This document shows, piece by piece, positions 26,932 through 44,743 of a stretch of 64,000 nt of DNA; within the stretch, counting starts at the first letter, position 1; each line of letters opens with the position of its first letter. A program made the translations under genes and the position numbers. Origin of the DNA: Bartonella sp. DGB1 (lineage in GTDB: Bacteria; Pseudomonadota; Alphaproteobacteria; Rhizobiales; Rhizobiaceae); NCBI RefSeq assembly GCF_041345015.1, contig NZ_CP166769.1:1116001-1180000 (forward strand). The letters run 5' to 3'. The notes under the pieces were generated by a model, which was given only the letters and a program-made list of their open reading frames with translations, ran no database searches and had not been told where the DNA came from.

Positions 26932-26940
26932 AATATAAGG

Positions 26941-27000
26941 GGAACGTACAATATTATTATATTTCTTTCAGTAAGTAATATAATAATATTGTTACGCTCC
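26941..27000. repeat. Long imperfect hairpin after the small membrane gene
   Basis: 26941-26963 pairs with 26977-27000 over about 22 positions, with one mismatch and one bulged base. The ends are GGAACGT/ACGCTCC and the middle is A/T-rich. It starts 10 bases after the stop of the 88-residue membrane protein and may terminate that gene. Confidence 0.55.
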
Positions 27001-27250: not shown

Positions 27251-27258
27251 GCTATATA

Positions 27259-29931
27259 TTACTTTTGTTTATCTAGAATAACTTCTTTAATAGCTTCAAT
27301 AGCATTTAAAGCATTACTACCATTTGAGCCACCTGCTTGGGCCATATCAGGACGCCCTCCTCCACCCTTGCCCCCTAATATTTCAGCAGCTAATTTAACT
27401 AAACTTACAGCAGTGAATTTATCAAGTAAATCAGCTGTAACGCCTACTATTATAGTGGCTTTATTAGTTTCGTCGACAGCAATAAAAGCTACAATACCAC
27501 TTTTAATTCTAATTTTTGCTGCATCTACTAAAGCTTTCAATTCCTTTACGGACACACCGGATAATATTTTAGATAAAAATTTTATATTTGCAATTTCTTC
27601 TATATTATCATTTTTACCATTATTAGTATCATTGCTAGATAATAAAGATTCTTTACGTAACTTAGTTAAATCTCTTTCTAATTTCTTTTTATCTTCTAAT
27701 AGACTAACTAAACGTTCTGTTAATTTTTCTGGTTGTGTTTTTAATAAACTAGCTGCTTTTTCTGCATAGTCTTCTTGTTGCAATAGATATTCTCTTGCTT
27801 TTTCAGAGGTTAAAGCCTCAATACGTCTGACTCCTGCACTCACACCGCTATCAGATATTATATGAAATAAACCGATCTCAGCAGTATTTTCTACATGAGT
27901 ACCCCCGCATAATTCAGTAGAAAAACAAATATTATCATCACTATCGAACTTATTACCTGATACAGTGACAACACGTACTAAATCAGAATATTTTTCTCCA
28001 AACAATGCTACTGCGCCTTTATCAATAGCCTTTTCTTTATCCATTACTGATGTATTTACATTGTTATTCAAAAATATTTGTTGATTAACCAAATTAGAGA
28101 TATCTATCAATTCTTGTTTAGTCAAAGGTTTTGGATATGAAAAATCAAACCGAAGACGATCAGCAGAAACTAACGATCCTTTTTGCATAACATTATTACC
28201 AAGTATCTTACGTAAAGCAGCATGTAATAAATGAGTGGCTGAATGATTGATAGCTGTTTTTTTCCTAAAATCTTTATCAACTATAAAATCTGCTTTCATA
28301 GATTTATTAATAATACCACTTCTAACAATACCATAATGACTTATAATACCGGCATGTTTTTTAGTGGTTAACACCTCAAAACTAAAATCATCTCCGTTTA
28401 TTAAACCTTTATCACCTATTTGCCCACCAGATTCAGGATAAAAACAAGTTTTATCACTGATAATAATTGCTTCTTGTCCTTCGATAATCTTATCGACTAA
28501 TTTATCTGCACAAATTATATTTTTAATCTCTGAATGACAATGCAAACCTGAATAACCTAAAAATTCTGTTTCACCTAATTGTTCTTGCAATTTAAACCAG
28601 ATAGAATCAATTGCTTGCTCACCAGATCCTGACCAATTAGAACGAGCATCCTGTTTTTGCTTTTCCATAGCAACTTCAAAAGACTTTACGTCAACTTTGA
28701 TATTTCTTTTACGTAATACATCTTGAGTTAAATCCAAAGGGAATCCATAAGTATCATAAAGCTTAAAGGCTATATCACCTTGCAATTCATCTCCAGATTT
28801 CATGTGTTTTGTAGCTTCATCTAATAACAATAAACCACGATCTAAGGTTCGTCTAAAGCGATCTTCTTCTAACAATAATGTCTCAGAAATTAATGACTCA
28901 TTATTTGCTAATTCTGGATAAAAATCACCCATCTCCTTTATAAGAGTCGGCACTAAACGCCACATCATAGAATCTTGTACACCAAGTAAATTTATATGAC
29001 GCATCGCTCTACGCATAATACGGCGTAATATATAACCTCTACCCTCATTTGACGGTAATATACCTTCAGCAATCAAAAAACTCGCTGAACGCAAATGATC
29101 AGCAATAACTCTATGACTGATTAAACTATCACCCTTAGCCGCTTTATTTGAGAAGGTCACAGAAGCATCTATTAATTTTTTAAATAAATCTATATCATAA
29201 TTATCATGCACGCCTTGTAATACAGCAGCTATACGCTCAAGACCCATGCCAGTATCAATAGATGGTTTAGGCAACAGTAGCATTTCACCTCTAGCTGTTT
29301 GCTCAAACTGCATAAACACTAAATTCCAAATTTCAACAAAACGATCGCCATCCTCATCGGCACTTCCAGGAGGTCCACCCCATATTTTATCACCATGATC
29401 ATAAAATATTTCAGAACATGGTCCACAAGGTCCTGTTTCGCCCATCGTCCAAAAATTATCTTTAGTACTAATACGGATTATTTTATCCTCAGATAAATTA
29501 GCAATTTTTTTCCAATAATTAATTGATTCTTCATCTGTATGATAAACAGTAACTAACAATTTCTCCTTAGGAAGAGCAAATTCCTTAGTTAATAAATTCC
29601 AACTGTGAAATATAGCTTCTTCTTTAAAATAATCCCCAAAAGAAAAATTACCTAACATTTCAAAAAAAGTATGATGTCTGGCAGTATAACCTACATTATC
29701 TAAGTCATTATGTTTACCACCAGCCCTAACACATTTCTGCGCAGAAGTAACTCTTTTATCTTTAGGTGTTTCTACACCAGTAAAAAAATTTTTAAAAGGT
29801 ACCATACCGGCATTGGTAAACATAAGACTAGGATCGTCATGCGTAATAAGAGAAGCAGAATCAACTTTCACATGTCCAACTTTAGCGAAATAATCTAAAA
29901 AAACAGACCTAATCTTATTAACGCTATTCAT
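27259..29931 (-). CDS. alaS: Alanyl-tRNA synthetase
   Basis: Charges tRNA-Ala and edits mischarged Ser and Gly. The class II aminoacylation domain begins IRSVFLDYFAKVGH. The editing-domain zinc motifs are HSATHLLH near residue 562 and CGGTH near 675, and the C-terminal oligomerisation and DHHA1 domain ends with GGKGGGGRPDMAQAGG. The length of 890 is standard. It lies 65 bases downstream of recA on the same strand, a neighbourhood common in proteobacteria, so recA-alaS may be co-transcribed. A degenerate repeat patch follows its 3' end. Confidence 0.97.
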   Translation of the reverse strand: MNSVNKIRSVFLDYFAKVGHVKVDSASLITHDDPSLMFTNAGMVPFKNFFTGVETPKDKRVTSAQKCVRAGGKHNDLDNVGYTARHHTFFEMLGNFSFGDYFKEEAIFHSWNLLTKEFALPKEKLLVTVYHTDEESINYWKKIANLSEDKIIRISTKDNFWTMGETGPCGPCSEIFYDHGDKIWGGPPGSADEDGDRFVEIWNLVFMQFEQTARGEMLLLPKPSIDTGMGLERIAAVLQGVHDNYDIDLFKKLIDASVTFSNKAAKGDSLISHRVIADHLRSASFLIAEGILPSNEGRGYILRRIMRRAMRHINLLGVQDSMMWRLVPTLIKEMGDFYPELANNESLISETLLLEEDRFRRTLDRGLLLLDEATKHMKSGDELQGDIAFKLYDTYGFPLDLTQDVLRKRNIKVDVKSFEVAMEKQKQDARSNWSGSGEQAIDSIWFKLQEQLGETEFLGYSGLHCHSEIKNIICADKLVDKIIEGQEAIIISDKTCFYPESGGQIGDKGLINGDDFSFEVLTTKKHAGIISHYGIVRSGIINKSMKADFIVDKDFRKKTAINHSATHLLHAALRKILGNNVMQKGSLVSADRLRFDFSYPKPLTKQELIDISNLVNQQIFLNNNVNTSVMDKEKAIDKGAVALFGEKYSDLVRVVTVSGNKFDSDDNICFSTELCGGTHVENTAEIGLFHIISDSGVSAGVRRIEALTSEKAREYLLQQEDYAEKAASLLKTQPEKLTERLVSLLEDKKKLERDLTKLRKESLLSSNDTNNGKNDNIEEIANIKFLSKILSGVSVKELKALVDAAKIRIKSGIVAFIAVDETNKATIIVGVTADLLDKFTAVSLVKLAAEILGGKGGGGRPDMAQAGGSNGSNALNAIEAIKEVILDKQK

Positions 29932-29996
29932 TTTTTTACTCTCTTAAACTAAACACAATAAAAGCTAATTCTATAAATAATTAAATTTTTTAAATA

Positions 29997-31052
29997 TTAT
30001 TCTTCTAATACTAAATCACTATTAGACGTCAAATCATCTGAACCTTCCATAAGTTTAGTGCTTAATAAACCAGCATTTTCTCTTATAGAATTTTCTATAA
30101 ATTCAGCTAATTCTGGATTATCACGTAAATATTGTTTAGCATTTTCTTTACCTTGACCTAACCTATTGGAATTACAAGAAAACCAAGCGCCGGATTTTTC
30201 AACAATACCAGCTTTTACTCCAAGATCGATTAACTCGCTATACCTAGAAATACCTTCACCATACATGATATCAAATTCCACCTGTTTAAAAGGAGGAGCC
30301 ATTTTATTTTTAACAACTTTAACTTTAGTTTGATTACCTATAATATTTTCTTTATCTTTTATTTGACCTATACGCCTAATATCTAAACGAACAGATGCAT
30401 AAAATTTCAATGCATTACCACCTGTAGTAACTTCCGGTGATCCATAAAATACACCTATTTTCATGCGCATTTGATTGATAAAAATCAATACACAATTAGA
30501 TTTAGATAATGAAGCTGTAATTTTACGTAATGCTTGACTCATAAGACGCGCTTGAGCACCTGGAGCACTATCGCCCATTTCACCTTCAATTTCAGTTTTA
30601 GGAGTTAATGCCGCGACTGAATCAACTACTAAAACATCTAAAGCACCTGAACGTATAAGAGTATCTGTTATTTCTAATCCTTGCTCTCCAGTATCAGGCT
30701 GTGAAATTAATAAATCTTCTAGATTAACTCCTAATTTACGAGCATAAACAGGATCCAAAGCATGTTCAGCATCTACGAAGCCACACACACCACCCATTTT
30801 TTGAGCTTCAGCAATAATATGTAAAGATAGAGTGGTTTTACCTGAACTTTCAGGACCATATATTTCTATTACTCTACCTCTAGGAACACCGCCAATGCCT
30901 AAAGCTATATCTAAAGACAAAGATCCGGTAGGAATAACTTCCACTCCCTTAACTTGATCATTTGATCCCATCCGCATAATTGAACCTTTACCAAAAGTTC
31001 GCTCAATTTGCGATAATGCTGCTGCTAAAGCTTTTGTCTTATCCGTTGTCAT
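29997..31052 (-). CDS. recA: Recombinase RecA
   Basis: Forms the strand-exchange filament on single-stranded DNA and stimulates LexA cleavage. The Walker A motif GPESSGKTT is at 66-74. The Walker B strand [13 protein letters not shown]1 region and ATP-site NQMRMKIGV are intact, and the acidic C-terminus is present. The length of 351 is normal. GGAAAG lies before the ATG. The 100-base gap to rarA holds a hairpin and AT-rich promoter-like sequence, but I cannot find a GTTC-N7-GTTC or CTGT-N8-ACAG operator, so SOS control is not evident from sequence. Confidence 0.97.
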
Positions 31053-31119
31053 AATATTTACTTTCCAAAGTTCAATATATTAACTATAATCTATTTATAC
31101 AGGTAATTAATTGTTTATT

Positions 31120-31148
31120 ATGATTGAAATATATATTTCCACAATCAT
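31120..31148 (-). terminator. Possible terminator of rarA
   Basis: Minus-strand ATGATT pairs with AATCAT and GAAATAT with ATATTTC, with a 3-base bulge. It starts five bases after the rarA stop and precedes the recA promoter region. It is weak because it is short of G/C and interrupted. Confidence 0.35.
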
Positions 31149-31152
31149 TTTA

Positions 31153-32475
31153 TTAAATTTCATTATTTTTGTTTTTTTTCTCTCTAAGATTATTCCACCA
31201 AGATATTCTTTTTTTTACTTCTCTCTCAAACCCGCGCTCAACCGGGTGATAATAAGATTTTCTACCTAGCTCCGTAGGAAAATAATCAGCACCTGAAAAA
31301 GCATATTCATAATTATGATCATAATTATAATTAGCACCATAACCTAATTCTTTCATCAATTTAGTAGGTGCATTTAGAATATGAGCGGGTGGAGCATAAT
31401 GCGAAAATTTTTTAGCGTCTTTCATAGCTTCCTTAAAAGCTTTATATATAGCATTAGACTTTGGCGCAGTAGCTAAATATAAACATGCCTGCGCAATTGC
31501 TAATTCTCCTTCAGGAGAACCTAAATGCAAATAACTTTCCCTAGCAGCAATTGAAATAGATAAAGCTTGAGGATCTGCTAAACCTATATCTTCACTAGCT
31601 ATCCTAATCAAACGCCGTGCTAAATATAAAGGATCTTCACCAGCAGATAACATACGACAAAAATAATATAAAGAAGCATCAGCATCACTACCACGAATAG
31701 ATTTATGTAAAGCAGAGATTAAATTATAATGTCCGTCACCTGATTTATCATATATAGCAAATTTTTTCTGTAATATTGTTAATAATTGGTCATTAGATAA
31801 AATATTTGGATCAGTTCTCGATAAAATTTCTTCAACTAAAGTTAAAAGGAAACGAGCATCACCATTTGCTAAATTAATTAAGATTTTCTTTCCTGTTTCA
31901 TCTATTGGTAAACAACGATTTTCTGTTTCTTCTACTTGAGTCAATAAATTATCTAAAATCTCCTCGCTAAGAGGTTTAAAAATAATAACACGAGCCCTGG
32001 ATAATAATGCAGAATTTAAATTAAAAGAAGGATTTTCGGTGGTTGCTCCAATTAAAATAACCGTACCATCTTCCAATACAGGTAAAAAAGAATCTTGCTG
32101 CGTTTTATTAAAACGATGTATTTCATCTACAAATAATATTGTTTGTTTATTATTATTTCTATATTCTTTAGCTTTGTCAAAAATTTTCTTTAATTCTGCA
32201 ACACCAGAAAAAATAGCCGAAATCTGAATAAATTCATACTCATCACGTTGAGATAATAAACGAGCCGCGGTAGTTTTACCTGTTCCAGAAGGGCCCCAAA
32301 ATATCATAGAGGATAAATGATTACGTTCTAATATTCCATCAGAACCAGTTAAATGTTCCTGCCCTAATAATTGTTGTAAATTTTTAGGACGCATTTTTTC
32401 AGCTAAAGGTATATATAATTTACTACCAGAATTATTATCGTCAAAAGGTAAATCTGCAAATAAATTTTCCGGCAT
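31153..32475 (-). CDS. rarA: Replication-associated recombination protein A (AAA+ ATPase)
   Basis: Clamp-loader-like AAA+ ATPase (MgsA/WRNIP1 family) that acts at stalled replication forks. The N-terminus PLAEKMRPKNLQQLLGQEHL leads into Walker A GPSGTGKTT near 60 and Walker B FVDEIHRFNKTQQD near 115. The C-terminal tetramerisation part contains KSIRGSDADASLYYF and ends near HPVERGFE. The length of 440 is typical. TTAGGA lies before the ATG, directly after a 14-bp hairpin in the leader. It sits between rplQ and recA on the same strand. Confidence 0.94.
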   Translation of the reverse strand: MPENLFADLPFDDNNSGSKLYIPLAEKMRPKNLQQLLGQEHLTGSDGILERNHLSSMIFWGPSGTGKTTAARLLSQRDEYEFIQISAIFSGVAELKKIFDKAKEYRNNNKQTILFVDEIHRFNKTQQDSFLPVLEDGTVILIGATTENPSFNLNSALLSRARVIIFKPLSEEILDNLLTQVEETENRCLPIDETGKKILINLANGDARFLLTLVEEILSRTDPNILSNDQLLTILQKKFAIYDKSGDGHYNLISALHKSIRGSDADASLYYFCRMLSAGEDPLYLARRLIRIASEDIGLADPQALSISIAARESYLHLGSPEGELAIAQACLYLATAPKSNAIYKAFKEAMKDAKKFSHYAPPAHILNAPTKLMKELGYGANYNYDHNYEYAFSGADYFPTELGRKSYYHPVERGFEREVKKRISWWNNLREKKNKNNEI

Positions 32476-32487
32476 TATATTTCCTAA

Positions 32488-32528
32488 TTTTCTATGAGTT
32501 ACATTAATATAATATAACTCATAGAAAA
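32488..32528 (-). promoter_or_regulatory. 14-bp hairpin abutting the rarA ribosome-binding site
   Basis: TTTTCTATGAGTTA (32488-32501) pairs perfectly with 32515-32528 across a 13-base loop. On the minus strand the stem ends immediately before TTAGGA, the rarA ribosome-binding site. It could act as a leader structure or as a second terminator after rplQ. Confidence 0.5.
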
Positions 32529-32597
32529 AAGCTAAAAATTATTTTACAATAACCATAATCTATTATTAAACTATCTGGATAATTAATAATATAAAAG

Positions 32598-32628
32598 AAT
32601 AAAGAGACCTCTATAAGGTCTCTTTATT
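32598..32628 (-). terminator. Terminator of the ribosomal superoperon after rplQ
   Basis: Perfect 13-bp stem (core AAGAGACCT/AGGTCTCTT) with a 5-base loop, 20 bases after the rplQ stop, followed by a T-rich stretch on the minus strand. Confidence 0.85.
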
Positions 32629-32647
32629 AAATAACAAGTAATTTTAA

Positions 32648-33076
32648 TTACTCAGATACAGGCTCTTCAACGGTATTATTTGCTACACGTTCTTTATCAG
32701 CCTTACCTTTTGCATTAACATCTCTGTCAACAAACTCTACAACAGCTAAAGGTGCATTGTCACCATAACGATATCCAGCTTTTACAATACGTAGATATCC
32801 GCCTTGTCTAGCAGCATAACGAGGAGCTAAAACATCAAAAAGTTTAGCAACTAAACTAGAATCTTTGACTGAAGCAAGTGCCTGACGACGAGAATGTAAA
32901 TTTCCTCTTTTACCAAGAGTAACTAATTTCTCAACTATAGGACGAATTTCTTTTGCTTTAGGCAAAGTAGTAACTATTTGCTCATGCTCAATCAATGAGG
33001 CAGACATATTACAAAACATCGCTTTACGATGACTAGCTGTACGATTTAGCTTGCGACCTGATTTACCGTGGCGCAT
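32648..33076 (-). CDS. rplQ: 50S ribosomal protein L17
   Basis: Large-subunit protein at the exit side of the ribosome. It starts [20 protein letters not shown], the family hallmark, and has a C-terminal tail rich in charged residues that takes it to 142 residues, longer than the 127 of E. coli. It is the last gene of the minus-strand ribosomal operon, 21 bases after rpoA, and is followed by a strong terminator. Confidence 0.97.
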
Positions 33077-33097
33077 AAGCTTTCTCCTTTTCTAATA

Positions 33098-34111
33098 TTA
33101 ATACTGATCTTCATAACGTCTAGCTAACTCTTCAACATTTTCTGGTGGCCAAGTTGGCACATCCATTCCAAGATGAAGACCCATTGAAACTAGAACTTCT
33201 TTAATTTCATTAAGTGATTTACGACCAAAATTAGGCGTTCTTAACATTTCAGATTCTGTTTTTTGAATTAAATCACCAATATAAATAATATTGTCATTTT
33301 TCAAACAATTTGCTGAACGCACTGATAATTCTAATTCATCCACTTTTTTCAATAAAGCTGGATTGAAAGATAATTCAGCCACTGAAGTTTCAACAGATTT
33401 TTTCTGTGGTTCTTCAAAATTAATAAACACATAAAGCTGTTCTTGCAAAATACGAGCTGCATATGCAATTGCATCTTCACCACTAACTGATCCATTAGTT
33501 TCCACAGATAAAATTAATTTATCATAATCAAGAATTTGTCCAGAACGTGTATTTTCAACTTTATAAGAAACTTTTCTAATAGGTGAATAAAGGCTATCAA
33601 TAGGTATAACTCCTATTGGATCATCTTCAGCTCCATTACGATCAGCTGAAACATAACCTCTACCTTTACCTACCTTAAGTTCCATACGTATTTCAGCACC
33701 TTCGTCCAAAGTACATATAACATGTTCAGGATTCAACACCTCAATATCACCAACTAATTGGATGTCACCCGCCATAACAACACCGGGACCTTTTTTATGA
33801 AGAACCAAACGTTTTGTATCTTCACCTTCCATCCTTATCGCAACTTCTTTAAGGTTTAAAATGATATCCATGACATCTTCACGCACACCAGCGATAGAAG
33901 AAAATTCATGTAAAACACCATCTATCTGAACAGAAGTAATAGCAGCCCCACGTAATGATGAAAGCAACACTCTTCTTAACGCATTTCCAATAGTTAAGCC
34001 AAAACCTCTTTCCAAAGGTTCCACCGAAACTGTAACATGTTTATTAGACATATTTTCATGATAAGAAACAACAGCCGGTTTAACTAAATCTTGCCAATTT
34101 TTTTCAATCAT
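33098..34111 (-). CDS. rpoA: RNA polymerase subunit alpha
   Basis: Dimerising subunit that nucleates RNA polymerase assembly. The N-terminal domain shows [18 protein letters not shown] (about residues 35-52). The C-terminal domain (about 255-325), which contacts UP elements and activators, includes [18 protein letters not shown]. The length of 337 is usual for alphaproteobacteria. It lies between rpsK and rplQ. The 86-base gap upstream contains a 10-bp hairpin directly after the rpsK stop. Confidence 0.98.
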
Positions 34112-34164
34112 TATAATACCTTCCTATTTTACCACTATCCTATCGTGGCAACAATACGGGGATC

Positions 34165-34192
34165 TGTATAGAAGCAATAACCCTTCTATACA
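34165..34192 (-). promoter_or_regulatory. Hairpin between rpsK and rpoA
   Basis: TGTATAGAAG (34165-34174) pairs perfectly with CTTCTATACA (34183-34192) across CAATAACC. It starts five bases after the rpsK stop in the minus-strand transcript. No T tract follows, so a processing or translational role is as likely as termination. Confidence 0.5.
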
Positions 34193-34197
34193 AATAA

Positions 34198-34587
34198 TTA
34201 AACACGACGACGTTTTGGCAAACGCGTACCATTATGAGGGATAGGCGTAACATCACGTATAGATAAAACTGTAAAACCAGAAGCTTGTAAAGCACGTAAC
34301 GCTGATTCTCTACCAGAACCAGGACCACAAACTTCAACTTCTAACGTTTTAACTCCGTGTTCTTGTGCTTTTTTCGCACAATCTTCAGCTGCAACTTGAG
34401 CTGCAAAAGGTGTTGACTTACGTGAGCCTTTAAAACCCTGCAAACCAGAGGAAGACCAAGCTATGGTATTTCCTTGCGCATCTGTAATAGTAATCATTGT
34501 GTTATTAAATGTAGAATTAATGTGAGCAACACCTGAAGATATATTCTTCCGCTCACGACGACGAACACGAGTCGCTTCTTTTGCCAT
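34198..34587 (-). CDS. rpsK: 30S ribosomal protein S11
   Basis: Small-subunit platform protein near the mRNA exit channel. It contains the signature block [19 protein letters not shown] near residue 85-103 and the basic C-terminus [11 protein letters not shown] use the ATG at 34587 (129 residues, MAKEATRV...), which has AAAGGTGA just upstream, not the GTG three codons earlier. It precedes rpoA; the gap after rpsM is structured. Confidence 0.97.
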
Positions 34588-34596
34588 AATTATCAC

Positions 34597-34670
34597 CTTT
34601 CATGATCTCAACACCACCGTATCCCCAGTGGCTACACCTACCAGCTAATTTTAGCTGAACTTAATAGGAA
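34597..34670 (-). promoter_or_regulatory. Structured spacer between rpsM and rpsK
   Basis: Two small hairpins on the minus strand. CAGCTAA pairs with TTAGCTG (34642-34657). CCACTG pairs with CGGTGG around GGGATA (34614-34631), with one pair that is G-U only in the minus-strand RNA. The stretch is richer in G and C than other gaps of the operon. Confidence 0.4.
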
Positions 34671-35039
34671 TTATTTCTTCTTACCTGCTATAGCTTTTGC
34701 AGGACCTTTACGGGTACGAGCATTAGTATGAGTACGCTGACCTCTTACTGGTAGCGAACGACGATGCCTTAAACCACGATAACAACCTAAATCCATTAAT
34801 CGTTTAACATTCATAGAAACTTCACGACGCAAATCGCCTTCTACTTGGTAATCACGATCTATAGCTTCACGGATCCGCAAAATTTCTGCATCGGTTAATT
34901 CATTAACACGCTTAGAAGATGGAATGTTAACACTATCCACTATCTTCTGCGAAAAATTAGGTCCAATCCCATGAATATACTGAAGAGCTATAACCACTCT
35001 TTTATTCGTAGGGATATTAACGCCAGCAATACGAGCCAC
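34671..35039 (-). CDS. rpsM: 30S ribosomal protein S13
   Basis: Head protein of the small subunit contacting tRNA and 50S bridges. It starts [20 protein letters not shown] and has the conserved [19 protein letters not shown] near residues 85-103; the length of 122 is normal. AAAGGAG lies before the ATG. A 116-base gap separates it from adk, the largest in the alpha-operon part, with a small TATCCT/AGGATA hairpin (35065-35081). Confidence 0.97.
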
Positions 35040-35155
35040 GCTTAATCTCCTTTAAATTCTACTCTATCCTAAATAAGGATATACACATATTAAATTACTA
35101 GTTCTTACTTTTAACAAATTTTACAAAAAAGTCAATAGAAAGACATAAAATCTTG

Positions 35156-35746
35156 TTATTTACATCTTTTTTGTATTTTAGCTTCTATAGCCGCGGTGAC
35201 CTCTGGTATAGTAAGCATTCCGTCAACAACATCCAACTTGCCTAGATTATTATAATAAGCTGCTACTGGTGCTGTTTTACTTCTATATTCAGCTAATCTT
35301 TTTTCTAAAACTTCGACAGAATCATCTAACCGCGCTACTTGCCCTGTACTTTGAGCATCTTTAACACGGGATTCAATTCTAGAAAATAAAATATCTTCAT
35401 CAACGCGAATTTCAATAACTGCATCCAACTTAATATTTTTATCTAAAAATAATTTAGTTAAACCCTCAGCTTGAACTAAATTTCTAGGATAGCCATCTAA
35501 AATAAATCCTTTACCTGCAGGTAAATTATTAATAGAATCGGCAATTAATTTTTCAACTATAGCATCAGATATTAACAAACCTTCTTTAATTTTAGCCTCA
35601 ATATCTTTACCAAATGCATCACCAACCTTTACAGCAGAACGCAACATATCTCCTGTTGATAAATGAGCAACATTATATTTTTCCATTAATATTTTAGCTT
35701 GAGTTCCTTTACCAGAACCGGGTGAACCTAATAAAATTATATTCAT
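35156..35746 (-). CDS. adk: Adenylate kinase, short-lid type
   Basis: Interconverts ATP + AMP and 2 ADP. The P-loop GSPGSGKGTQ is at residues 7-16, the AMP-site motif DGYPRN near 83-88, and the catalytic arginines RIESRVKD and RLDDSVEVLEKRLAEYR follow. At 196 residues it lacks the long lid insert and zinc ligands of the 214-residue type, as usual in alphaproteobacteria. Its ATG overlaps the secY stop (ATGA), so translation is probably coupled. It is embedded in the ribosomal operon as in many bacteria. Confidence 0.97.
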   Translation of the reverse strand: MNIILLGSPGSGKGTQAKILMEKYNVAHLSTGDMLRSAVKVGDAFGKDIEAKIKEGLLISDAIVEKLIADSINNLPAGKGFILDGYPRNLVQAEGLTKLFLDKNIKLDAVIEIRVDEDILFSRIESRVKDAQSTGQVARLDDSVEVLEKRLAEYRSKTAPVAAYYNNLGKLDVVDGMLTIPEVTAAIEAKIQKRCK

Positions 35747-37095
35747 CTTAAACGTCTTCCTCCTTGACGATTACCCTTCAAACGACTCTTTTTTAATAAA
35801 CCAGCATATTGTTGTGAGATTAAATGACTTTGAATCTGCGACACTGTATCCAAAGCAACATTAACCATAATTAACAATGATGTACCTCCTAAATGAAGTG
35901 GAACACCTGTAGCTGATAATAACAACTCAGGAAACAAAGCAACGCAAACTATATATATAGCACCTAAAACTGTTATTCTGGTCAAAACATAATCAATATA
36001 TTCCGCTGTCTTTTCGCCTGGTCTTATACCAGGAATAAAACCGGAATGTTGTTTCAATTGGTTAGCTGTATCAGTAGGATTAAAAACAATAGCAGTGTAA
36101 AAAAAGCAGAAGAACACCATAAGCACAGCAAATAAGATCATATACAGCAATTGACCATGACTTAATTGACCTAAAATTACTGACAACCATTGAGGAATAT
36201 TTTCAGCGGAAGTAAAACCAACAATAGTAGTAGGCATCAATAAAATAGCAGAGGCGAATATCGGAGGAATAACACCCGCTGTATTCAACTTTAATGGTAA
36301 ATGAGATGTCTCACCTTGAAGCAATTGCCTACCAACTTGACGTTTCGGATATTGAATAAGCAAACGACGTTGAGCACGTTCAAAATAAACGATAACACCT
36401 ATAACTGCAACGATAAATAACAAAATACCTAAAATAGTAAAACTTGATAAAGCACCTGTTCTTCCTAGCTCCATTGTAGCAGAAAAAGCTGCAGGAAGTT
36501 CAGCGACTATACCAGCAAAAATTATCAAAGATATACCATTACCAATACCACGAGAAGTTATCTGCTCCCCTAACCACATTAGAAAAACGGTACCGCCAAC
36601 AATGGTAATAGTAGTAGAAACTATAAAAAAGCTACCAGGGTTTGAAACTAAACCCGCACTAGACTGCAGGCCAAATGATAAACCAACCCCTTGAATAACC
36701 GCAAATAAAACCGTCAAATAACGAGTATACTGATTTAACAATTGTCGACCGCTTTCACCATCTTTTTTGATAGCTTCTAACTGCGGTAGCACAGATGAAA
36801 GAATTTGTATAATAATTGAGGCAGAAATATAAGGCATAATTCCTAAAGCAAAAATAGCCATACGCCCTATAGCACCACCAGCAAACATATTAAATAGACC
36901 TAACACGCCACCAGAATGCTGTGTAAATAAATTATATAAGGCATCAGCATTAATACCTGGAATAGGAACATAAGTTCCAAAACGATATACAATAAGAGCA
37001 CAAAGGGTAAACCACAAACGTGCTTTTAACTCTTTAGCTTTAGAAAAAGTGGAAAGATTCATATTAGATGCAAGTTGCTCTGCAGATGATGCCAT
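35743..37095 (-). CDS. secY: Preprotein translocase subunit SecY
   Basis: Channel-forming subunit of the Sec translocon in the inner membrane. Ten hydrophobic helices can be counted over 450 residues. Hallmarks are FGTYVPIPGIN near 43-53, the plug-region stretch MFAGGAIGRMAIFALGIMPY, and the C-terminal cytosolic loop HSGFIPGIRPGEKTAEY. TAGGAGACAG lies before the ATG. A textbook terminator-like hairpin (37133-37156) lies between it and upstream rplO, so its expression may depend on readthrough. adk overlaps its stop. Confidence 0.97.
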   Translation of the reverse strand: MASSAEQLASNMNLSTFSKAKELKARLWFTLCALIVYRFGTYVPIPGINADALYNLFTQHSGGVLGLFNMFAGGAIGRMAIFALGIMPYISASIIIQILSSVLPQLEAIKKDGESGRQLLNQYTRYLTVLFAVIQGVGLSFGLQSSAGLVSNPGSFFIVSTTITIVGGTVFLMWLGEQITSRGIGNGISLIIFAGIVAELPAAFSATMELGRTGALSSFTILGILLFIVAVIGVIVYFERAQRRLLIQYPKRQVGRQLLQGETSHLPLKLNTAGVIPPIFASAILLMPTTIVGFTSAENIPQWLSVILGQLSHGQLLYMILFAVLMVFFCFFYTAIVFNPTDTANQLKQHSGFIPGIRPGEKTAEYIDYVLTRITVLGAIYIVCVALFPELLLSATGVPLHLGGTSLLIMVNVALDTVSQIQSHLISQQYAGLLKKSRLKGNRQGGRRLR

Positions 37096-37132
37096 TACTG
37101 TACTGTCTCCTATGTTCTTCCTAAAAAATAAA

Positions 37133-37156
37133 TTTTGAGGGAAAACTCCCTCAAAA
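37133..37156 (-). terminator. Intrinsic terminator or attenuator between rplO and secY
   Basis: Perfect 10-bp stem TTTTGAGGGA/TCCCTCAAAA with a 4-base loop, three bases after the rplO stop. On the minus strand the stem is followed by TTTATTTTTT, while the plus-strand side has no T run. The geometry is that of a rho-independent terminator pointing toward secY. Confidence 0.75.
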
Positions 37157-37158
37157 AA

Positions 37159-37620
37159 CTATACTGTTAATAATTTAATTGATCCGCCAGATTTTTCAAT
37201 TTTTTGAATCGCAACTTTAGAAGCTCCAGAAACTTCAAAATTTAAAGGTTGCTTTAGATCTCCAGTAGAAAGGATACGAACGCCATCGTTCAAACGACGA
37301 ATAATTCCTAATTCTTTTAAAAGAGAAGCTGTGATAACTTTATCAATAGTTAAAGAACCAGAATCAACAGCAAATTGAATCCTATCCAAAGAAACAATAT
37401 TATATTTCTTACTAAATAAGTTATTAAAGCCTCTTTTAGGTAAACGACGATAAATAGGCATCTGACCGCCTTCAAAACCGTTAAGCGAAACACCAGAACG
37501 AGACTTCTGACCTTTAACACCACGACCGCCAGTCTTACCTACACCAGAACCTATACCGCGACCAACGCGTTTACGAGACTTTGTAGCACCAAGACAATCA
37601 CGTAGTTCATTTAATTTCAT
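37159..37620 (-). CDS. rplO: 50S ribosomal protein L15
   Basis: Late-assembly large-subunit protein. The glycine- and arginine-rich N-terminus with GRGIGSGVGKTGGRGVKGQ (near 21-39) is diagnostic, as is GFEGGQMPIYRRLPKRGF. The length of 153 is normal. It follows rpmD by 15 bases and is followed by a terminator-like hairpin before secY. Confidence 0.97.
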   Translation of the reverse strand: MKLNELRDCLGATKSRKRVGRGIGSGVGKTGGRGVKGQKSRSGVSLNGFEGGQMPIYRRLPKRGFNNLFSKKYNIVSLDRIQFAVDSGSLTIDKVITASLLKELGIIRRLNDGVRILSTGDLKQPLNFEVSGASKVAIQKIEKSGGSIKLLTV

Positions 37621-37635
37621 AATTTCACTCCTACC

Positions 37636-37845
37636 TTAACGCCCTTCATCCACAATACGGACTAAATGCTCTACTTTTTTGATCATACCTCTAATTGCAG
37701 AAGTATCTTCAAGAACACGACGACGATGCATTTTATTCAATCCTAACCCAATAAGGGTAGCTCGCTGAATAGCAGGACGGCGTATAGGACTACCTATCTG
37801 CTCCACAGTTAGTGTTTTTAAAGTTTCGTTTTTCTTCTTAACCAT
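37636..37845 (-). CDS. rpmD: 50S ribosomal protein L30
   Basis: Small large-subunit protein with the L30 core [20 protein letters not shown] and [15 protein letters not shown]. The open frame extends 35 codons further upstream inside rpsE, but I place the start at 37845 (69 residues, [10 protein letters not shown]...) because AGGA lies before that ATG and L30 proteins are 55-70 residues long. It lies between rpsE and rplO. Confidence 0.95.
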
Positions 37846-37876
37846 AATATCAATTCCTAAAATATAAACTACACTA

Positions 37877-38422
37877 TTATTCTTCAGAACCAATAAGATG
37901 CTGACGGCGAGATTGTAATGTGGAATATTTGATACCGCGCTGAGAAGCAACTAACTTAGGATGAACCTGATGACTCAATGCATCAAAAGTAGCTCTCACC
38001 ATATTATAAGGATTAGACGAACCCAAAGATTTAGCAACAACATCCTGTATACCAACAGCTTCAAAAATAGCACGCATCGGACCACCAGCAATAATACCAG
38101 TACCAACAGCAGCTGAACGTAACAATACTTTACCAGCTCCATGACGACCTGAAATATCATGATGCAAAGTACGACCTGAACGCAAAGGAACAAAAATCAT
38201 ACTTTTACGAGCAGCATCGGTAGCTTTTCTAATAGCTTCAGGAACTTCTTTTGCTTTACCATGACCAAAACCGACTCGACCCTTTTGATCACCAACCACA
38301 ACAAGGGCAGCAAAACCAAAACGGCGACCACCCTTAACAACTTTTGCAACACGATTAATATGAACTAGTTTATCTACTAGATCATTATCACGATCTTCTC
38401 TATTTTTCTCTCTCGGTGCCAT
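37877..38422 (-). CDS. rpsE: 30S ribosomal protein S5
   Basis: Small-subunit protein at the mRNA entry, important for decoding fidelity. The double-stranded RNA-binding fold starts near [19 protein letters not shown], and the later [23 protein letters not shown] is split over about residues 113-137. At 181 residues it is somewhat longer than the 167 of E. coli because of a charged N-terminal extension. The 65-base gap after rplR contains a 9-bp hairpin (38455-38475). Confidence 0.97.
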
Positions 38423-38487
38423 ATCCTATCCTTTTTCTTTTCCGGAAGCACTACTTTGCTAATATTATTAACAAAATATCTTATCAA

Positions 38488-38850
38488 CTAAAACAACAGT
38501 CCGCCTTCTCTAGCAGAATCAGCAAGAGCTTTAACGCGACCATGATAAATATAAGATCCACGATCAAAAACAACTTCTTTAATTCCAACAGCTAAAGCAC
38601 GTTCAGCTATTAACTTTCCTACCGCAGCAGCGGCTGCTTTATCAGCAGAAGATTTCAATTGCCCTTTTAACGAAGCATCTAAAGTTGAACTAGAAACAAT
38701 TGTATGACCTTTAGAATCATCTATTACTTGAGCATAGATATTTTGATTTGAACGATAAACACTCAAACGCAAACGACCATCTGCAACTGATTTAATTTTA
38801 CGACGAACCCTTTGAGCACGACGTTGGACTTTTTCTTTCTGAGATGACAT
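38488..38850 (-). CDS. rplR: 50S ribosomal protein L18
   Basis: Binds 5S rRNA in the central protuberance. It contains [18 protein letters not shown] and the ending [19 protein letters not shown] ... AREGGL; the length of 120 is typical. It lies 12 bases after rplF in the operon. Confidence 0.97.
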
Positions 38851-38862
38851 TATAACGATCCC

Positions 38863-39396
38863 TTATTTCTTCTTACCTTCTTTGCGAACAATTTTTTCAT
38901 TCGCATATCTTACACCCTTACCTTTATAAGGTTCAGGACCACGATACTTCCTTATTTCCGCAGAAACATGACCTACTTGTTGCTTATCGATACCTGAAAC
39001 AACAATTTCTGTTGGCTTAGGAACTGAAACAACAACACCTGAAGGAACTCTATAAATAACCTCATGACTAAAACCTAAAGAAAGCTGAAGATCTTTACCT
39101 TGCATTGCTGCACGATAACCAACCCCACTAATTTCTAAACGTTTTTCAAAGCCATCTTTAACTCCTATGATTATATTTTCAATCATAGAACGAGACATAC
39201 CCCACTTAGAACGAGCATCTTTAGAATCATCTTTAGGTGATACAGAAATAGAATTTTCTTCAAAATTTATTAAAACCTCATCATTAACAACATAAGACAA
39301 CTCACCTTTAGAGCCCTTAGCTTTAACAATTTGACCTTCAACGGATATTGTCACACCCTGAGGAATAATAATCGGCTTTTTTCCAATACGAGACAT
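38863..39396 (-). CDS. rplF: 50S ribosomal protein L6
   Basis: Large-subunit protein near the GTPase-associated centre with two similar alpha/beta domains. It starts [15 protein letters not shown] and carries the C-terminal signature [19 protein letters not shown]. The length of 177 is standard. A 69-base gap with a 14-base palindrome (39420-39433) separates it from rpsH. Confidence 0.97.
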
Positions 39397-39465
39397 TTTT
39401 TAACCTGTCTTTTATTTCCGAGTAAATTTACTCAATTATTACAAACCAACAAGCATCTTAGCAGA

Positions 39466-39864
39466 TTAAAAAATCTGACACAAAAGCTCACCACCAACAT
39501 TTCGATCACGGGCTTCATGATCTGCCATAACTCCTTGCGAAGTCGACAAAATAGAAATACCCAAACCATTAGCCACATTAGGTATTGCTTTAGCAGAAAC
39601 ATAAACACGACGACCAGGTTTTGAAACACGACTAATCTTACGTATAACAGGAGTACCTTCGTAGTATTTCAACTCAATATCTATCTCAGCTTTACCATGA
39701 TCTAAATCTTTCCGCTCATAACCACGGATATAACCTTCTGCCTGTAAAACATCTAAAACACGAACACGTAATCCCGAAGCTGGCGTAGATACGCGCAAAT
39801 GACGACGAGACATTGCATTACGAATTCGTGTCAACATATCTCCAATAGGATCTGAAACAGCCAT
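39466..39864 (-). CDS. rpsH: 30S ribosomal protein S8
   Basis: Primary 16S rRNA-binding protein; in E. coli it also represses the spc operon. It starts [18 protein letters not shown] and has the C-terminal [20 protein letters not shown]; the length of 132 is normal. It lies 10 bases after rpsN. Confidence 0.97.
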
Positions 39865-39874
39865 AATAATACCC

Positions 39875-40180
39875 TTACCAACTAGACTTAACTAAACCAG
39901 GAATACGACCCTGAGACCCAAGCTCACGAAGTGCTATACGTGACATCCTAAGCTTACGATAATAAGCCCTTGGACGACCTGTAACTTCACAACGATTATG
40001 AACCCTATTCTCAGCAGAATTGCGTGGCAACTCTGCCAATTTTAAATTTGCGCGAAAACGCTCATCTAAAGAAAGATTACGATCCATAACGATCGCTTTC
40101 AAGCGTGAACGCTTAGACTTATAGAGTTTTACTAACTCCATTCGACGTTTATTCTTTTCAACGGCACTAACTTTTGCCAT
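39875..40180 (-). CDS. rpsN: 30S ribosomal protein S14, zinc-free type
   Basis: Head protein of the small subunit. At 101 residues with a single cysteine in the [19 protein letters not shown] block it is the long C-minus form without the zinc ribbon, as usual in proteobacteria. It lies between rplE and rpsH. Confidence 0.97.
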
Positions 40181-40203
40181 AATATACCTCGCTACGATTG
40201 CCG

Positions 40204-40761
40204 TTACTTAGAAAAGGGAAAATTCAAACAACGTAATAATTCACGTGCTTCAACATCCGTTTTCGCTGTCGTACAAACGATTATATCCATACCCCAGATC
40301 TGACTAACTTTATCATAGTTAATCTCTGGGAACACAATATGCTCTTTAAGTCCCATGGCAAAATTACCACGACCATCAAAGCTTTTTGGGTTTAAACCCC
40401 TAAAGTCACGAACCCTTGGTAACGCAACATTTATTAAGCGATCCAAAAATTCGTACATTTTTTCACGACGAAGGGTAACTTTTGCACCTATTGGCATACC
40501 TTCGCGAACCTTAAAAGTTGCAACAGAACGACGAGCTCTAGTAACAACAGCACGCTGACCAACTATCAAAGATAAATCAGCAGCAGCAGATGCTGGTTTT
40601 TTAGAATCAGCCGTTGCTTCACCTACACCCATATTGATAACTATCTTATCAACCCTAGGTATTGACATAGGATTACTATAGTTAAACTGAGATAAAAGAT
40701 CCTGCCTAACAACTTCATTATAATATTTTCTCAAACGAGGTTCTAATTTTACATCAGCCAT
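40204..40761 (-). CDS. rplE: 50S ribosomal protein L5
   Basis: Binds 5S rRNA and contacts the P-site tRNA. Recognised by [15 protein letters not shown], the [18 protein letters not shown] block and the ending [16 protein letters not shown]; the length of 185 is normal. The start overlaps the end of rplX by 8 bases, which implies coupled translation. Confidence 0.97.
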
Positions 40762-41068
40762 CGATCAATTCTCCTGAACGCCTAGCCACACGAACCTTCT
40801 TTCCTTCAGAATTGATGCGGAAACCAACACGAGTGGCTTTGCCATCTTTAGGATCCAAAAGCGCTAAATTAGATAAATGAATAGGGGCTTCTTTTGGAAT
40901 AATACCCCCTTCAGAATCACGAGTTGGCTTTTGATGACGCTTTACAATATTAATTCCACGAACCAAAGCTAAACCTTCTTTAGGCATAACCTTAAGCACT
41001 TCACTAACCTGACCTTTATCCTTACCAGTAAGAACAACGACCTTATCATTTTTACGTATCTTATTCAT
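40754..41068 (-). CDS. rplX: 50S ribosomal protein L24
   Basis: Assembly-initiating large-subunit protein with an N-terminal KOW motif ([20 protein letters not shown]) and a [12 protein letters not shown] block. The 104-residue length is typical. It lies 9 bases after rplN and overlaps rplE. Confidence 0.97.
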
Positions 41069-41077
41069 CCTAAACCC

Positions 41078-41446
41078 CTACAAGACTTCAGGCGCCAATG
41101 AAAGAATCTTCATATGACTCTTAGCGCGCAATTCACGTGGAACAGGTCCAAAAATACGTGTACCTATAGGCTCTTTTTTATTATCTATTAGAACCGCCGC
41201 ATTCTTATCAAAACGAATAACACTACCATCTAACCGACGTATATCCTTCGCTGTACGAACAACAACAGCTTTCATCACATCACCTTTTTTAACGCGCCCT
41301 CGTGGAATAGCCTCTTTAACGGAGACAACTATAATATCTCCTACTGATGCATATCTACGTTTAGAGCCGCCTAAAACTTTGATGCACATGACACGACGGG
41401 CTCCGGAGTTGTCCGCAACGTCGAGGTTTGTTTGCATCTGTATCAT
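41078..41446 (-). CDS. rplN: 50S ribosomal protein L14
   Basis: Large-subunit protein at an intersubunit bridge. It starts [20 protein letters not shown] and contains the [20 protein letters not shown] block; the length of 122 is normal. In E. coli it begins the spc operon. Here it is preceded by the longest gap in the superoperon (165 bases), which holds a large AT hairpin and a TTGACA hexamer. Confidence 0.97.
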
Positions 41447-41540
41447 GACTGGTCGCCTTCTTTACTTAACAAAATAAACTAACAAGCAAATATGAACATC
41501 CTTTTCGCACATTCGTAACCACTTGTCAAATAACCTTTAA

Positions 41541-41586
41541 ATATTTTATAAAATTTATCACATATTTTTATAAATTTTATAAATAT
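41541..41586 (-). promoter_or_regulatory. Large AT hairpin at the S10/spc boundary
   Basis: 41541-41558 pairs with 41570-41586 over 17 pairs with one bulged base and an 11-base loop. It lies in the gap between rpsQ and rplN, about 25 bases after the rpsQ stop. TTGACA on the minus strand (41524-41529) follows; I find no good -10 element 16-18 bases further. Confidence 0.5.
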
Positions 41587-41611
41587 CTAACACTCAATAT
41601 AGAATTATTGA

Positions 41612-41839
41612 TTATTCCACAACAATCCAACATTTATCTTTAGAGATAGGTGCTGATTCTTCAATAGAAACTACATCACCTACTTTAAAACGATTATTTT
41701 CATCATGTGCTTTATATTTACGAGATTGACGAACAATCTTCTGAAGCAAAGGATGAGAATAACGACGCTCTACTCTAACTACTACGGTTTTGTCGCTTTT
41801 ATCACTAACAACAACACCTTGCAAAATGCGTTTTGGCAT
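41612..41839 (-). CDS. rpsQ: 30S ribosomal protein S17
   Basis: Early 16S rRNA-binding OB-fold protein. It starts [20 protein letters not shown] and has [23 protein letters not shown] split over residues 26-48. The 75-residue length is normal. It would be the last gene of an S10-type operon, as the gap to rplN suggests. Confidence 0.96.
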
Positions 41840-41856
41840 CTTCTTAATTCCTTAAT

Positions 41857-42051
41857 TTAGTTTTTAGCCGCTCTTTCACGCATAATAGTTTTTATACGTG
41901 AAATATCACGACGAACTTGCTTAACACGAGAAATCTTTTCCAACTGACCGGTTGCCTGCTGAAAACGCAAATTAAATTGCTCTTTCTTGAGATGACCTAA
42001 TTCTTCAATTAACTCATCTTGCGTCTTAGCTCTTACATCTGAAGCCTTCAT
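41857..42051 (-). CDS. rpmC: 50S ribosomal protein L29
   Basis: Small helical protein near the tunnel exit and the signal-recognition-particle docking site. The 64 residues include [20 protein letters not shown] and the basic IARIKT-type ending seen as [11 protein letters not shown]. It lies between rplP and rpsQ with 11- and 17-base spacers. Confidence 0.96.
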
Positions 42052-42062
42052 AAATAAACTCC

Positions 42063-42476
42063 TTAGTCTGAAATACGCTGAATAAACCTCGTTTTAACTG
42101 GTAACTTAGCAGCACCAAGACGAAAAGCTTCTCTAGCGATCTCTTCAGAAACACCATCTAATTCAAACATTATACGACCCGGAGCAACGCGGGCTGCCCA
42201 ATAGTCAACACTGCCCTTACCTTTACCCATACGAACTTCTGTCGGCTTACTTGTAACTGGAAGATCTGGAAAAATACGTATCCAAACCCGGCCAGCACGC
42301 TTCATATGACGAGTGATAGCGCGACGTGCAGCTTCTATTTGACGCGCAGTTACACGCTCGGGCTCTAAAGCCTTTAATCCATATGTACCAAAATTAAGAT
42401 CCGTTCCACCCTTCGAAGCACCGTGAATACGACCCTTGAATTGCTTACGAAACTTTGTGCGCTTAGGCTGCAACAT
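42063..42476 (-). CDS. rplP: 50S ribosomal protein L16
   Basis: Large-subunit protein near the A site. It starts [19 protein letters not shown] and has [20 protein letters not shown] near residues 81-100, including the conserved arginine-hydroxylation region. The length of 137 is standard. Confidence 0.97.
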
Positions 42477-42499
42477 GATTCTTACTCCAATTCATTATA

Positions 42500-43204
42500 T
42501 TAAGCATTATCTTTACGACGAGGAGAAAAACCTTTATTATTCTCCAAAGAGCGACGCTCTGATGCCATCGGATCATGCTCTAAAATTTCACCTTTAAAAA
42601 CCCAAACTTTAACACCACAAATACCATATGCGGTTAAAGCTTCTGCTGTACCATAATCTATATCAGCACGAAGTGTATGCAAAGGAACACGACCTTCACG
42701 ATACCACTCCATACGAGCAATCTCAGCTCCACCTAAACGACCGGAACAATTAATACGGATACCTTCTGCGCCCAAACGTAACGCTGATTGAACAGCCCGT
42801 TTCATTGCACGACGAAAAGCTACACGACGTTCTAATTGTTGTGCTATGGACTGAGCTATTAATACTGCATCTGTCTCTGGTTTACGAACCTCTACAATAC
42901 TTAGCATTGTCTCTGAATCAGTCATCTTTGAAATTTTGGCACGTAATTTCTCAATATCAGCACCTTTTTTACCAATGATCAAACCAGGACGACCGGCATG
43001 AATGATAACACGGCATTTTTTATGAGGACGCTCAACAACAACTTTAGAAATACCAGCAACCTTCAATTCCTTTACAAGAAAATCTCTGATTTTAATATCT
43101 TCTTGTAAAAGCTTACCATATTCACCTGTATTAGCATACCAGCGAGAATCCCAAGTACGATTAACACCTAAACGAAGCGCTACTGGATTAACTTTCTGAC
43201 CCAT
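42500..43204 (-). CDS. rpsC: 30S ribosomal protein S3
   Basis: Lines the mRNA entry tunnel. It has an N-terminal KH domain with [21 protein letters not shown] (about 66-86) and a C-terminal S3 domain with [20 protein letters not shown]. The length of 234 is usual. Its ATG shares one base with the rplV stop (TAATG), indicating coupled translation. Confidence 0.97.
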
Positions 43205-43593
43205 TATGCTGCCTCCTCTTTATTTAATACTTCACGGACGACAATCGTCAAATTTGAAAAAGGCTTTTCTATACGGCTAGAACGACCACGACCACGAACA
43301 TGAAATCTCTTCATAACCATTGCCTTACCTACATAAGCTTCAGAAACAACCAAAGAATCGATATTTAAATCATGATTATTCTCTGCATTAGCTATAGCAG
43401 ATTCCAAGGTCTTTTTAACTGTAGCAGCTATACGTTTACGGGAAAAAGTTAAGTCTGCCAAAGCTTTCTCGACCTTTTTACCACGAATTAAAGTAGCAAC
43501 CAAATTTAATTTCTGAGGACTAATTCTTATCATACGAGTAACTGCCTTAGCCTCATTCTCAGCAAGTTGACGTGGGGTTTTAGATTTACCCAT
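43204..43593 (-). CDS. rplV: 50S ribosomal protein L22
   Basis: Its extended loop lines the exit tunnel at the macrolide-sensitive constriction. It contains [20 protein letters not shown] and [20 protein letters not shown]; the length of 129 is normal. It starts 2 bases after the rpsS stop and overlaps rpsC by one base. Confidence 0.97.
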
Positions 43594-43595
43594 CT

Positions 43596-43874
43596 TTATT
43601 TCCTCTTAGCCTTCTTGTCTGCACCATGTCCATAATAAGTACGAGTTGGAGCAAATTCTCCAAATTTATGACCTATCATTTCCTCTGAAACCAAGACTGG
43701 TACATGTTTATTACCATTATATACACCAAAGGTCAAGCCAACAAATTGAGGTAAAATAGTAGAGCGACGGCTCCATATTTTAATCACTTCATTGCGACCA
43801 CTTTCGCGAACCTTCTCAGCCTTCTTTAGAAGATAGCCGTCAACAAAAGGTCCTTTCCAAACTGAACGAGCCAT
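43596..43874 (-). CDS. rpsS: 30S ribosomal protein S19
   Basis: Head protein paired with S13. It starts [20 protein letters not shown] and has [20 protein letters not shown] and [16 protein letters not shown]; the length of 92 is normal. It lies between rplB and rplV. Confidence 0.97.
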
Positions 43875-43888
43875 AGTAGCTTCCTCTC

Positions 43889-44722
43889 CTATTTCTTGCG
43901 CTGATGACGTGAGCGCATGATAAATTTATCTGTCGTTTTATTTGAACGAGTTCTCTTACCCTTTGTAGGTTTACCCCAAGGAGAAACAGGATGACGTCCA
44001 CCAGATGTACGACCTTCACCACCACCATGTGGGTGATCAATAGGATTCATAGCAACACCGCGAACATGAGGACGCTTACCACGCCACCGAGAGCGACCTG
44101 CCTTCCCATCTTTAATATTTAAATGATCAGGATTAGAAACAGCACCAACAGTTGCATAACAAAGACTAGAAACTAAACGCTGCTCACCAGAATTCAAACG
44201 TAAAATTACCATACCTTGATCTCTACCAACTAACTGGACATAAGAACCAGCTGAACGGGCAATTTGACCACCTTTACCAGGTTTTAATTCAACATTATGA
44301 ACTATAGTACCTACAGGTATTGACCCTAAAGGCATTGCATTACCGGGCTTCACATCAGCAACAGCCCCAGAAACAACAACATCACCAACAGCCAAACGTT
44401 GCGGAGCTAATATATAACTTAATTCTCCATCTTCGTAACGAATTAACGCTATAAAAGAAGTGCGATTAGGATCATACTCAATACGCTCAACACAAGCTTT
44501 AACATCAGCTTTACGACGTTTAAAATCTATTAATCGGTAAGTGCGTTTATGACCACCACCTTGAAAACGTGCAGTGATACGACCTAGATTATTACGACCA
44601 CCTTTAGATTGCAAACCTTCTGTTAATTTTTTAACCGGTTTTCCTTTATACAAAGAAGAACGATCTACAATAACAAGTTGTCGTTGCCCGGGTGTGGTCG
44701 GATTAAAACTTTTTAATGCCAT
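43889..44722 (-). CDS. rplB: 50S ribosomal protein L2
   Basis: Large-subunit protein needed for subunit joining and peptidyl-transferase assembly. It starts [17 protein letters not shown]. The C-terminal signature [20 protein letters not shown] includes the functionally important histidine. The length of 277 is normal. Confidence 0.97.
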
Positions 44723-44743
44723 TTTATCTACTCCTAAACCTGC

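Follow-up and report, generated by a model that had tools for sequence, protein, structure and literature searches.

A likely intrinsic terminator between rplO and secY, and the probable source of secY-adk transcripts, in a small AT-rich alphaproteobacterial genome

Where does the ribosomal protein unit end when a hairpin stands between rplO and secY, and from where are the genes beyond it transcribed? The cluster in question runs ...rplR-rpsE-rpmD-rplO-secY-adk-rpsM-rpsK-rpoA-rplQ on the minus strand of the window, by which we mean the whole 64,000-nt stretch of DNA analysed, in a genome consisting of a single contig of 1,398,791 bases. A first-pass annotation of the sequence had placed an intrinsic terminator between rplO and secY and had proposed that all six downstream genes rely on partial readthrough. 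Gene names were taken from that finding, from gene order and from matches in relatives. The features of the locus are as follows.

37159..37620, minus strand: rplO (ribosomal protein L15, 153 aa), from the ORF and its translation, position and tblastn to relatives; the final gene ahead of the likely terminator
37161-37159, minus strand: rplO stop codon TAG, from the sequence
37133..37156, minus strand: likely terminator hairpin with 10 perfect pairs and loop GTTT, from the sequence, scans and folding
37123..37132, minus strand: U-tract TTTATTTTTT, from the sequence
37106..37111, minus strand: likely secY ribosome-binding site AGGAGA, judged from the motif and its distance to the ATG
35743..37095, minus strand: secY (450 aa), with ATG at 37095
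35156..35746, minus strand: adk (196 aa), matched by tblastn at the corresponding position in relatives, with a 4-base overlap with the end of secY
35108..35135, minus strand: probable promoter of rpsM-rpsK-rpoA-rplQ, with TTGACT at 35135-35130 and TAAAAG at 35113-35108
34671..35039, minus strand: rpsM, ORF beginning with GTG, which opens the next unit
34198..34596, minus strand: rpsK, ORF whose listed start codon may be upstream of the true start
33098..34111, minus strand: rpoA, ORF
32648..33076, minus strand: rplQ, ORF; last gene of the cluster
32598..32628, minus strand: terminator-like hairpin 3' of rplQ with 14 pairs, from the terminator scan; probable end of the cluster

Downstream of the rplO stop codon the minus strand reads TT, then the stem-loop TTTTGAGGGA-GTTT-TCCCTCAAAA (37156-37133) and then TTTATTTTTT (37132-37123). 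The stem comprises 10 Watson-Crick pairs (4 G-C) closed by a loop of 4, begins 2 nt past the stop codon and has a stability of -12.7 kcal/mol. Directly after it, 9 of 10 letters are T, which makes a nearly perfect U-tract. The T run is located on the coding strand only and none follows the stem on the opposite strand, so the hairpin is one-directional. The spacer between the two genes, which lie on the same strand, is 63 nt long, and 37 bases separate the stem from the secY ATG, with AGGAGA (37111-37106) between them. The perfect stem with its 4-base loop, the T run on one strand and a secY start with its own ribosome-binding site were thus all present, at the coordinates given, as the first-pass annotation had described them.

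Set against shuffled sequence, the hairpin is real and exceeds what chance would give. A mechanical scan of 26000-45000 returned 14 terminator-like sites against 10.9 expected (sd 3.2); the longest stems among them were the 10-pair stem between rplO and secY and the 14-pair stem after rplQ, and the rest had 6 pairs at most. Under a strict rule, which asked for 8 or more perfect pairs, 4 or more G-C pairs and a minimum of 6 T in 8, 3 sites, including the rplO-secY hairpin, were found in the whole 64-kb window, while 20 shuffles averaged 0.05. Shuffling the 63-nt spacer 5000 times never produced the 10-pair version. The strict rule is not perfectly clean, since one of the three sites (23420-23438, plus strand) falls within a 469-aa ORF. 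Folding of a 73-nt region was moderately better than that of its shuffles (z -1.99; 9 of 200 shuffles equal or better). The hairpin has a d'Aubenton-Carafa-type score of +25.8, against a threshold of zero; the score is to be read as rough, for it gives -2.2 to the cluster-ending hairpin after rplQ. Even when up to 3 mismatches were tolerated, the rplO-secY hairpin was found at no other place in the 1.4-Mb genome, so it is not a dispersed repeat. With regard to a regulated attenuator or riboswitch, no Rfam family matched the spacer at gathering scores. Its structure and position, together with the recurrence of stems in relatives described below, lead us to regard the hairpin as a likely intrinsic terminator, placed at a long-standing boundary ahead of secY.

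Two other sites in the window were recorded in the course of these scans. The strict terminator-like hairpin at 23420-23438 (plus strand), with its T run, lies inside the ORF at 23174-24583, the start of which, in our own reading of the DNA, presumably encodes a glutamine synthetase-type protein. A strong terminator-like hairpin at 58540-58562 (minus strand) follows a 412-aa ORF, the translation of which resembles a DEAD-box RNA helicase in our own reading.

The junction was compared with 126 loci besides the window, of which 118 had spacers of at least 30 nt. Of the 127 spacers with the window included, the hairpin tests covered all but the 8 that were shorter than 30 nt, and the promoter counts all but 2 with at most 10 nt. 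Loci L098, L109 and L116, in which rplO was not matched, were dropped, and the scanned set excluded L135, L136 and L138, three loci from small genomes. For the named loci, more than 587 SecY matches were available, of which the top 80 were kept. A SecY match was found in 59 relatives, 49 of which were used, and 36 of the 60 relatives drawn were of the same family. Among the named matches listed, the best to SecY were Rhizobiales bacterium AFS055504 and Ochrobactrum at 71% identity, in a listing that may omit records of the window's own genome or very near ones. The names of the matches suggest the group label Rhizobiaceae, in a broad sense.

Perfect stems of at least 8 pairs were found in 57 of the 118 relatives' spacers, compared with 3.7 expected by shuffling, and a qualifying stem with at least 4 T in the 8 letters after it in 32 of 118, compared with 0.2; both counts overstate independence, as near-duplicate loci (e.g. 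L002/L031, L034/L035, L038/L039) are among them. A hairpin at the same place in related genomes, which had been put forward as a check on the terminator, was therefore found. The stem started within 20 nt of the rplO stop codon in 38 of the 57 stem-bearing relatives. In 25 of the 57 no qualifying stem had a T-tail, so it is not certain that the function is the same across relatives. When relatives were graded by kinship, stems were present in 21 of 34 of the same family (11 of 34 with T-tail) and, outside the family but within the order, in 3 of 14 (2 of 14 with T-tail). Among eight cluster junctions of the named loci, rplO-secY ranked first (stems 33/70, T-tails 19) and rpsK-rpoA second (stems 29/72, T-tails 7); the latter counts suggest that a structured rpoA leader may be conserved. 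In the window the rpsK-rpoA gap (34112-34197, minus strand) holds the hairpin ATTTGTATAGAAGGGTTATTGCTTCTATACAGAT without a T-tail.

With G-T pairs allowed, hairpins of -12 kcal/mol or lower were found in 62 of 119 rplO-secY spacers, window included, against 10.3 expected. Looser folding gave no clear excess at this junction: T-tailed hairpins of -12 kcal/mol or lower occurred in 46 of 119 spacers (36.2 expected), and any hairpin of -15 kcal/mol or lower in 106 of 119 (96.0 expected). In GC-rich relatives the perfect-stem test set rplO-secY apart from other spacers, whereas loose local folding did not. Four AT-rich relatives had no strong stem in the first 100 nt, namely L046 Bartonella taylorii (-7.8 kcal/mol), L112 (-8.3), L120 (-3.6) and L124 (-2.7). 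These AT-rich loci and the lack of a clear excess under loose folding indicate that the rplO-secY stem is not universal. Several pair positions were altered on both sides among 21 tallied stems, whose loci were set by the TTGCA box described below and not by a true alignment, with some near-duplicates included. Pairing kept while letters change would fit a role for the RNA structure.

In some relatives the same spacer holds a second element. The motif TTGCA-N18-TAT was present in 24 of 124 relatives' rplO-secY spacers against 0.2 expected, and in 20 of the 24 box-bearing loci (19 from the stem scan and L032 through a longer loop) the stem reached into the TTGCA -35 box; the exceptions were L003, L005, L006 and L030. 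This is the fair figure, since a tally of 20 of 21 holds partly by construction, only stems ending near TTGCA having been counted. As the stem extends into the box, the 3' arm of the hairpin would supply bases of the -35 box in these relatives. In the genus nearest by SecY identity and its close kin, TTGCA-N18-TATCTGGG was kept in 21 of 22 loci and a stem of at least 10 pairs in all 22, six of which had a longer loop and a stem of 12-15 pairs instead of 10. These 22 loci come from 20 of 30 genomes, those with loci, together with L031 and L032. From the motif and its conservation we infer that the TTGCA-N18-TAT boxes of relatives are secY promoters.

The window presents a different picture. TTGCA was not found in its 63-nt spacer, and the best sigma-70 match there (8/12) was equalled in 902 of 2000 shuffles, which indicates that the spacer has no recognisable promoter and agrees with the earlier remark that little room is left for one. 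Across the scan 88 promoter-like matches were counted against 72.2 expected (sd 8.7), an excess that means little in DNA so rich in AT. A source of secY transcripts within rplO was considered and rejected, because a promoter there would lie upstream of the terminator and be of no help to secY. Since the spacer of the window is without the TTGCA-N18-TAT of relatives, secY and adk are probably expressed mainly by readthrough. A Rho domain is encoded in the genome, so other routes of termination are open.

In Acetobacteraceae an independent terminator-like element may precede secY. The last ~50 nt before secY in L108 (Commensalibacter intestini) contain ACAGCGTC...GACGCTGT and TTTTT abutting the secY ribosome-binding site, and a similar sequence is present in L102.

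The gap between adk and rpsM bears on the remaining genes. In the window it contains TTGACT (35135-35130)-N16-TAAAAG (35113-35108), a 9/12 match to sigma-70 whose counterparts in Bartonella taylorii and Ochrobactrum look similar by eye. TTGAC was found in 62 of 73 relatives' adk-rpsM gaps, with 15.2 expected by shuffling, and shuffling the gap of the window 2000 times produced it in 107 cases. The box of the window alone is thus modest evidence, and it is conservation in relatives that carries the promoter reading. The -10 box TAAAAG is without the last T. Passages of PMC8407463 describe many promoters of Alphaproteobacteria as having such a -10 box, for which CarD is proposed to compensate; an ORF of 179 aa with a CarD domain is present in the genome. 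The rpsM-rpsK-rpoA-rplQ genes (S13, S11, polymerase subunit alpha and L17) probably have their own promoter. Because the gap holds this conserved promoter-like box, they need not rely on readthrough, and as these later genes appear to be served separately, the terminator probably lowers secY and adk only. Of the proposal that six downstream genes depend on readthrough, the part concerning secY and adk probably stands and the part concerning rpsM, rpsK, rpoA and rplQ probably does not. Likewise, the idea that secretion and polymerase genes are set apart together is narrowed to secY-adk, with rpoA probably behind the adk-rpsM promoter.

Two further observations were made. Rfam Alpha_RBS, the regulatory RNA of the E. 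coli alpha operon, matched the rpsM leader (35101-35007, minus strand) with 39.2 bits against a cut-off of 38, starting about where the predicted rpsM transcript would start (35101). We rejected this match as a probable false positive: agreement in letters is concentrated at the ribosome-binding site and initial codons of rpsM, and several of the pairs are disrupted. Seven relatives' loci gave no Alpha_RBS match at gathering scores. In the rpsQ-rplN gap (41447-41611, minus strand, 165 nt) a promoter-like TTGACA-N17-GAAAAG precedes rplN. One of 70 relatives has TTGAC there, and 156 of 2000 shuffled versions of the gap contain it, so this site is particular to the lineage or due to chance.

The explanation that we consider somewhat better than even is that the terminator closes the ribosomal unit, that readthrough is the main source of secY-adk and that the adk-rpsM promoter restarts the alpha unit. 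Behind rplO, a working intrinsic terminator would mark the end of a ribosomal protein unit of the S10-spc type. Some polymerases would continue past it, and this readthrough would be the main source of secY-adk mRNA, which would keep the output of SecY and Adk below that of the ribosomal proteins by a fixed ratio. Transcription of rpsM-rpsK-rpoA-rplQ would begin anew at a sigma-70-type promoter between adk and rpsM that relatives also conserve. Many relatives with larger genomes have a hairpin at the rplO-secY junction, some of them also with a promoter-like secY box, and the window, from a small AT-rich genome with a 63-nt spacer, has no such box; an ancestral secY promoter may have been lost in its lineage. 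Termination, the fraction of polymerases that pass, the loss of an ancestral promoter, the boxes as promoters and the dosage effect are all inferred from the sequence. What speaks against the explanation is that a promoterless terminator before the essential secY would be risky, which may point to a weak terminator or to an unrecognised promoter.

The latter possibility can be stated as a rival. The terminator may be full and overlap an unrecognised secY promoter, the hairpin and U-tract doubling as promoter sequence and secY-adk forming a unit of its own; boxes such as TTGAGG (37154-37149) with TTTATT (37132-37127) illustrate the arrangement. Some relatives, among them the nearest genus by SecY identity with its conserved motif (21/22), do have a -35 box partly in the 3' arm of the hairpin, and the CarD-domain ORF and the tendency of alphaproteobacterial promoters to be without the last T of the -10 box, as given in passages of PMC8407463, also speak for such a promoter. 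However, the TTGCA box of relatives is absent and the best match in the spacer is one that 902 of 2000 shuffles reach, and we hold this arrangement to be possible but unlikely.

If termination itself is questioned, the hairpin could instead be an mRNA 3'-end or processing element that mainly guards the upstream ribosomal message against 3' exonucleases or serves as a cleavage point, with transcription continuing and the secY part being less stable. The 25 of 57 stem-bearing relatives without a T-tailed qualifying stem fit stability as well as termination, but the U-tract of the window, with 9 of 10 T on one strand only, is a mark of termination and makes the stability role improbable. It is very improbable that the hairpin is a chance product of AT-rich DNA with no function. 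In favour of chance, the folding advantage of the region over its shuffles is moderate (z -1.99) and a strict-rule site also falls in a coding ORF (23420-23438), yet 0.05 strict sites are expected in 64 kb, none of 5000 spacer shuffles gave the hairpin and stems recur at this junction in relatives. Closure of the ribosomal unit with readthrough into secY-adk is the explanation that we carry forward.

Archaeal U-rich terminators that act with aCPSF1 are not known to need a hairpin. In Methanococcus maripaludis, internal terminators (ioTTS) are located in operons of ribosomal protein and RNA polymerase genes, and incomplete termination at them lowers the downstream genes, according to passages of PMC10450193 that report U-tract mutation, northern analysis, qRT-PCR and western blots. 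The locus described here is similar in that a putative terminator lies in a ribosomal operon before non-ribosomal genes (PMC10450193, in part). It differs in that the archaeal elements are U-rich terminators working with aCPSF1 and have polymerase subunits downstream, whereas the window has a bacterial hairpin with secY-adk downstream (same passages). E. coli secY likewise comes after ribosomal protein genes, and passages of two reviews (PMC8082313, PMC10502375) describe it as disconnected from the spc operon and independently expressed, an internal promoter being the authors' suggestion; in the window a terminator is visible and no promoter is recognisable. The gene after secY is rpmJ (bL36) in E. 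coli and adk in the window. Relatives of the Brucella/Ochrobactrum and Mesorhizobium types share with the window the same junction and a stem after the rplO stop codon. Their stem is GC-rich with a weaker T-tract, and behind it come TTGCA-N18-TAT and a stretch of 53-168 nt up to the start of secY, whereas the window has neither the box nor the leader. No report of an rplO-secY terminator in alphaproteobacteria was found among titles and abstract starts in open-licence PubMed Central, and a term search of the main text of the Sinorhizobium start-site paper PMC3616915 found none of secY, rplO, rpsM or 'ribosomal'.

The terminator itself is an ordinary kind of element; less ordinary are the overlap of stem and promoter in relatives and the bare terminator in the window. 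The hairpin and the boxes (24/124 before secY, 62/73 before rpsM) give a concrete and testable alphaproteobacterial layout where the passages of the reviews (PMC8082313, PMC10502375) offer only a suggested internal promoter for the decoupling of secY in E. coli. We tentatively propose that in part of Rhizobiaceae rplO-secY is a compact boundary, at which the 3' arm of the terminator gives bases to the -35 box of secY and so would separate secretion from ribosome synthesis. In the reduced genome of the window the promoter half may have been lost and the bare terminator left as a fixed valve, the ratio of SecY to ribosomes being set by terminator strength alone. The junction would then be a possible case of a regulatory junction simplifying during genome reduction.
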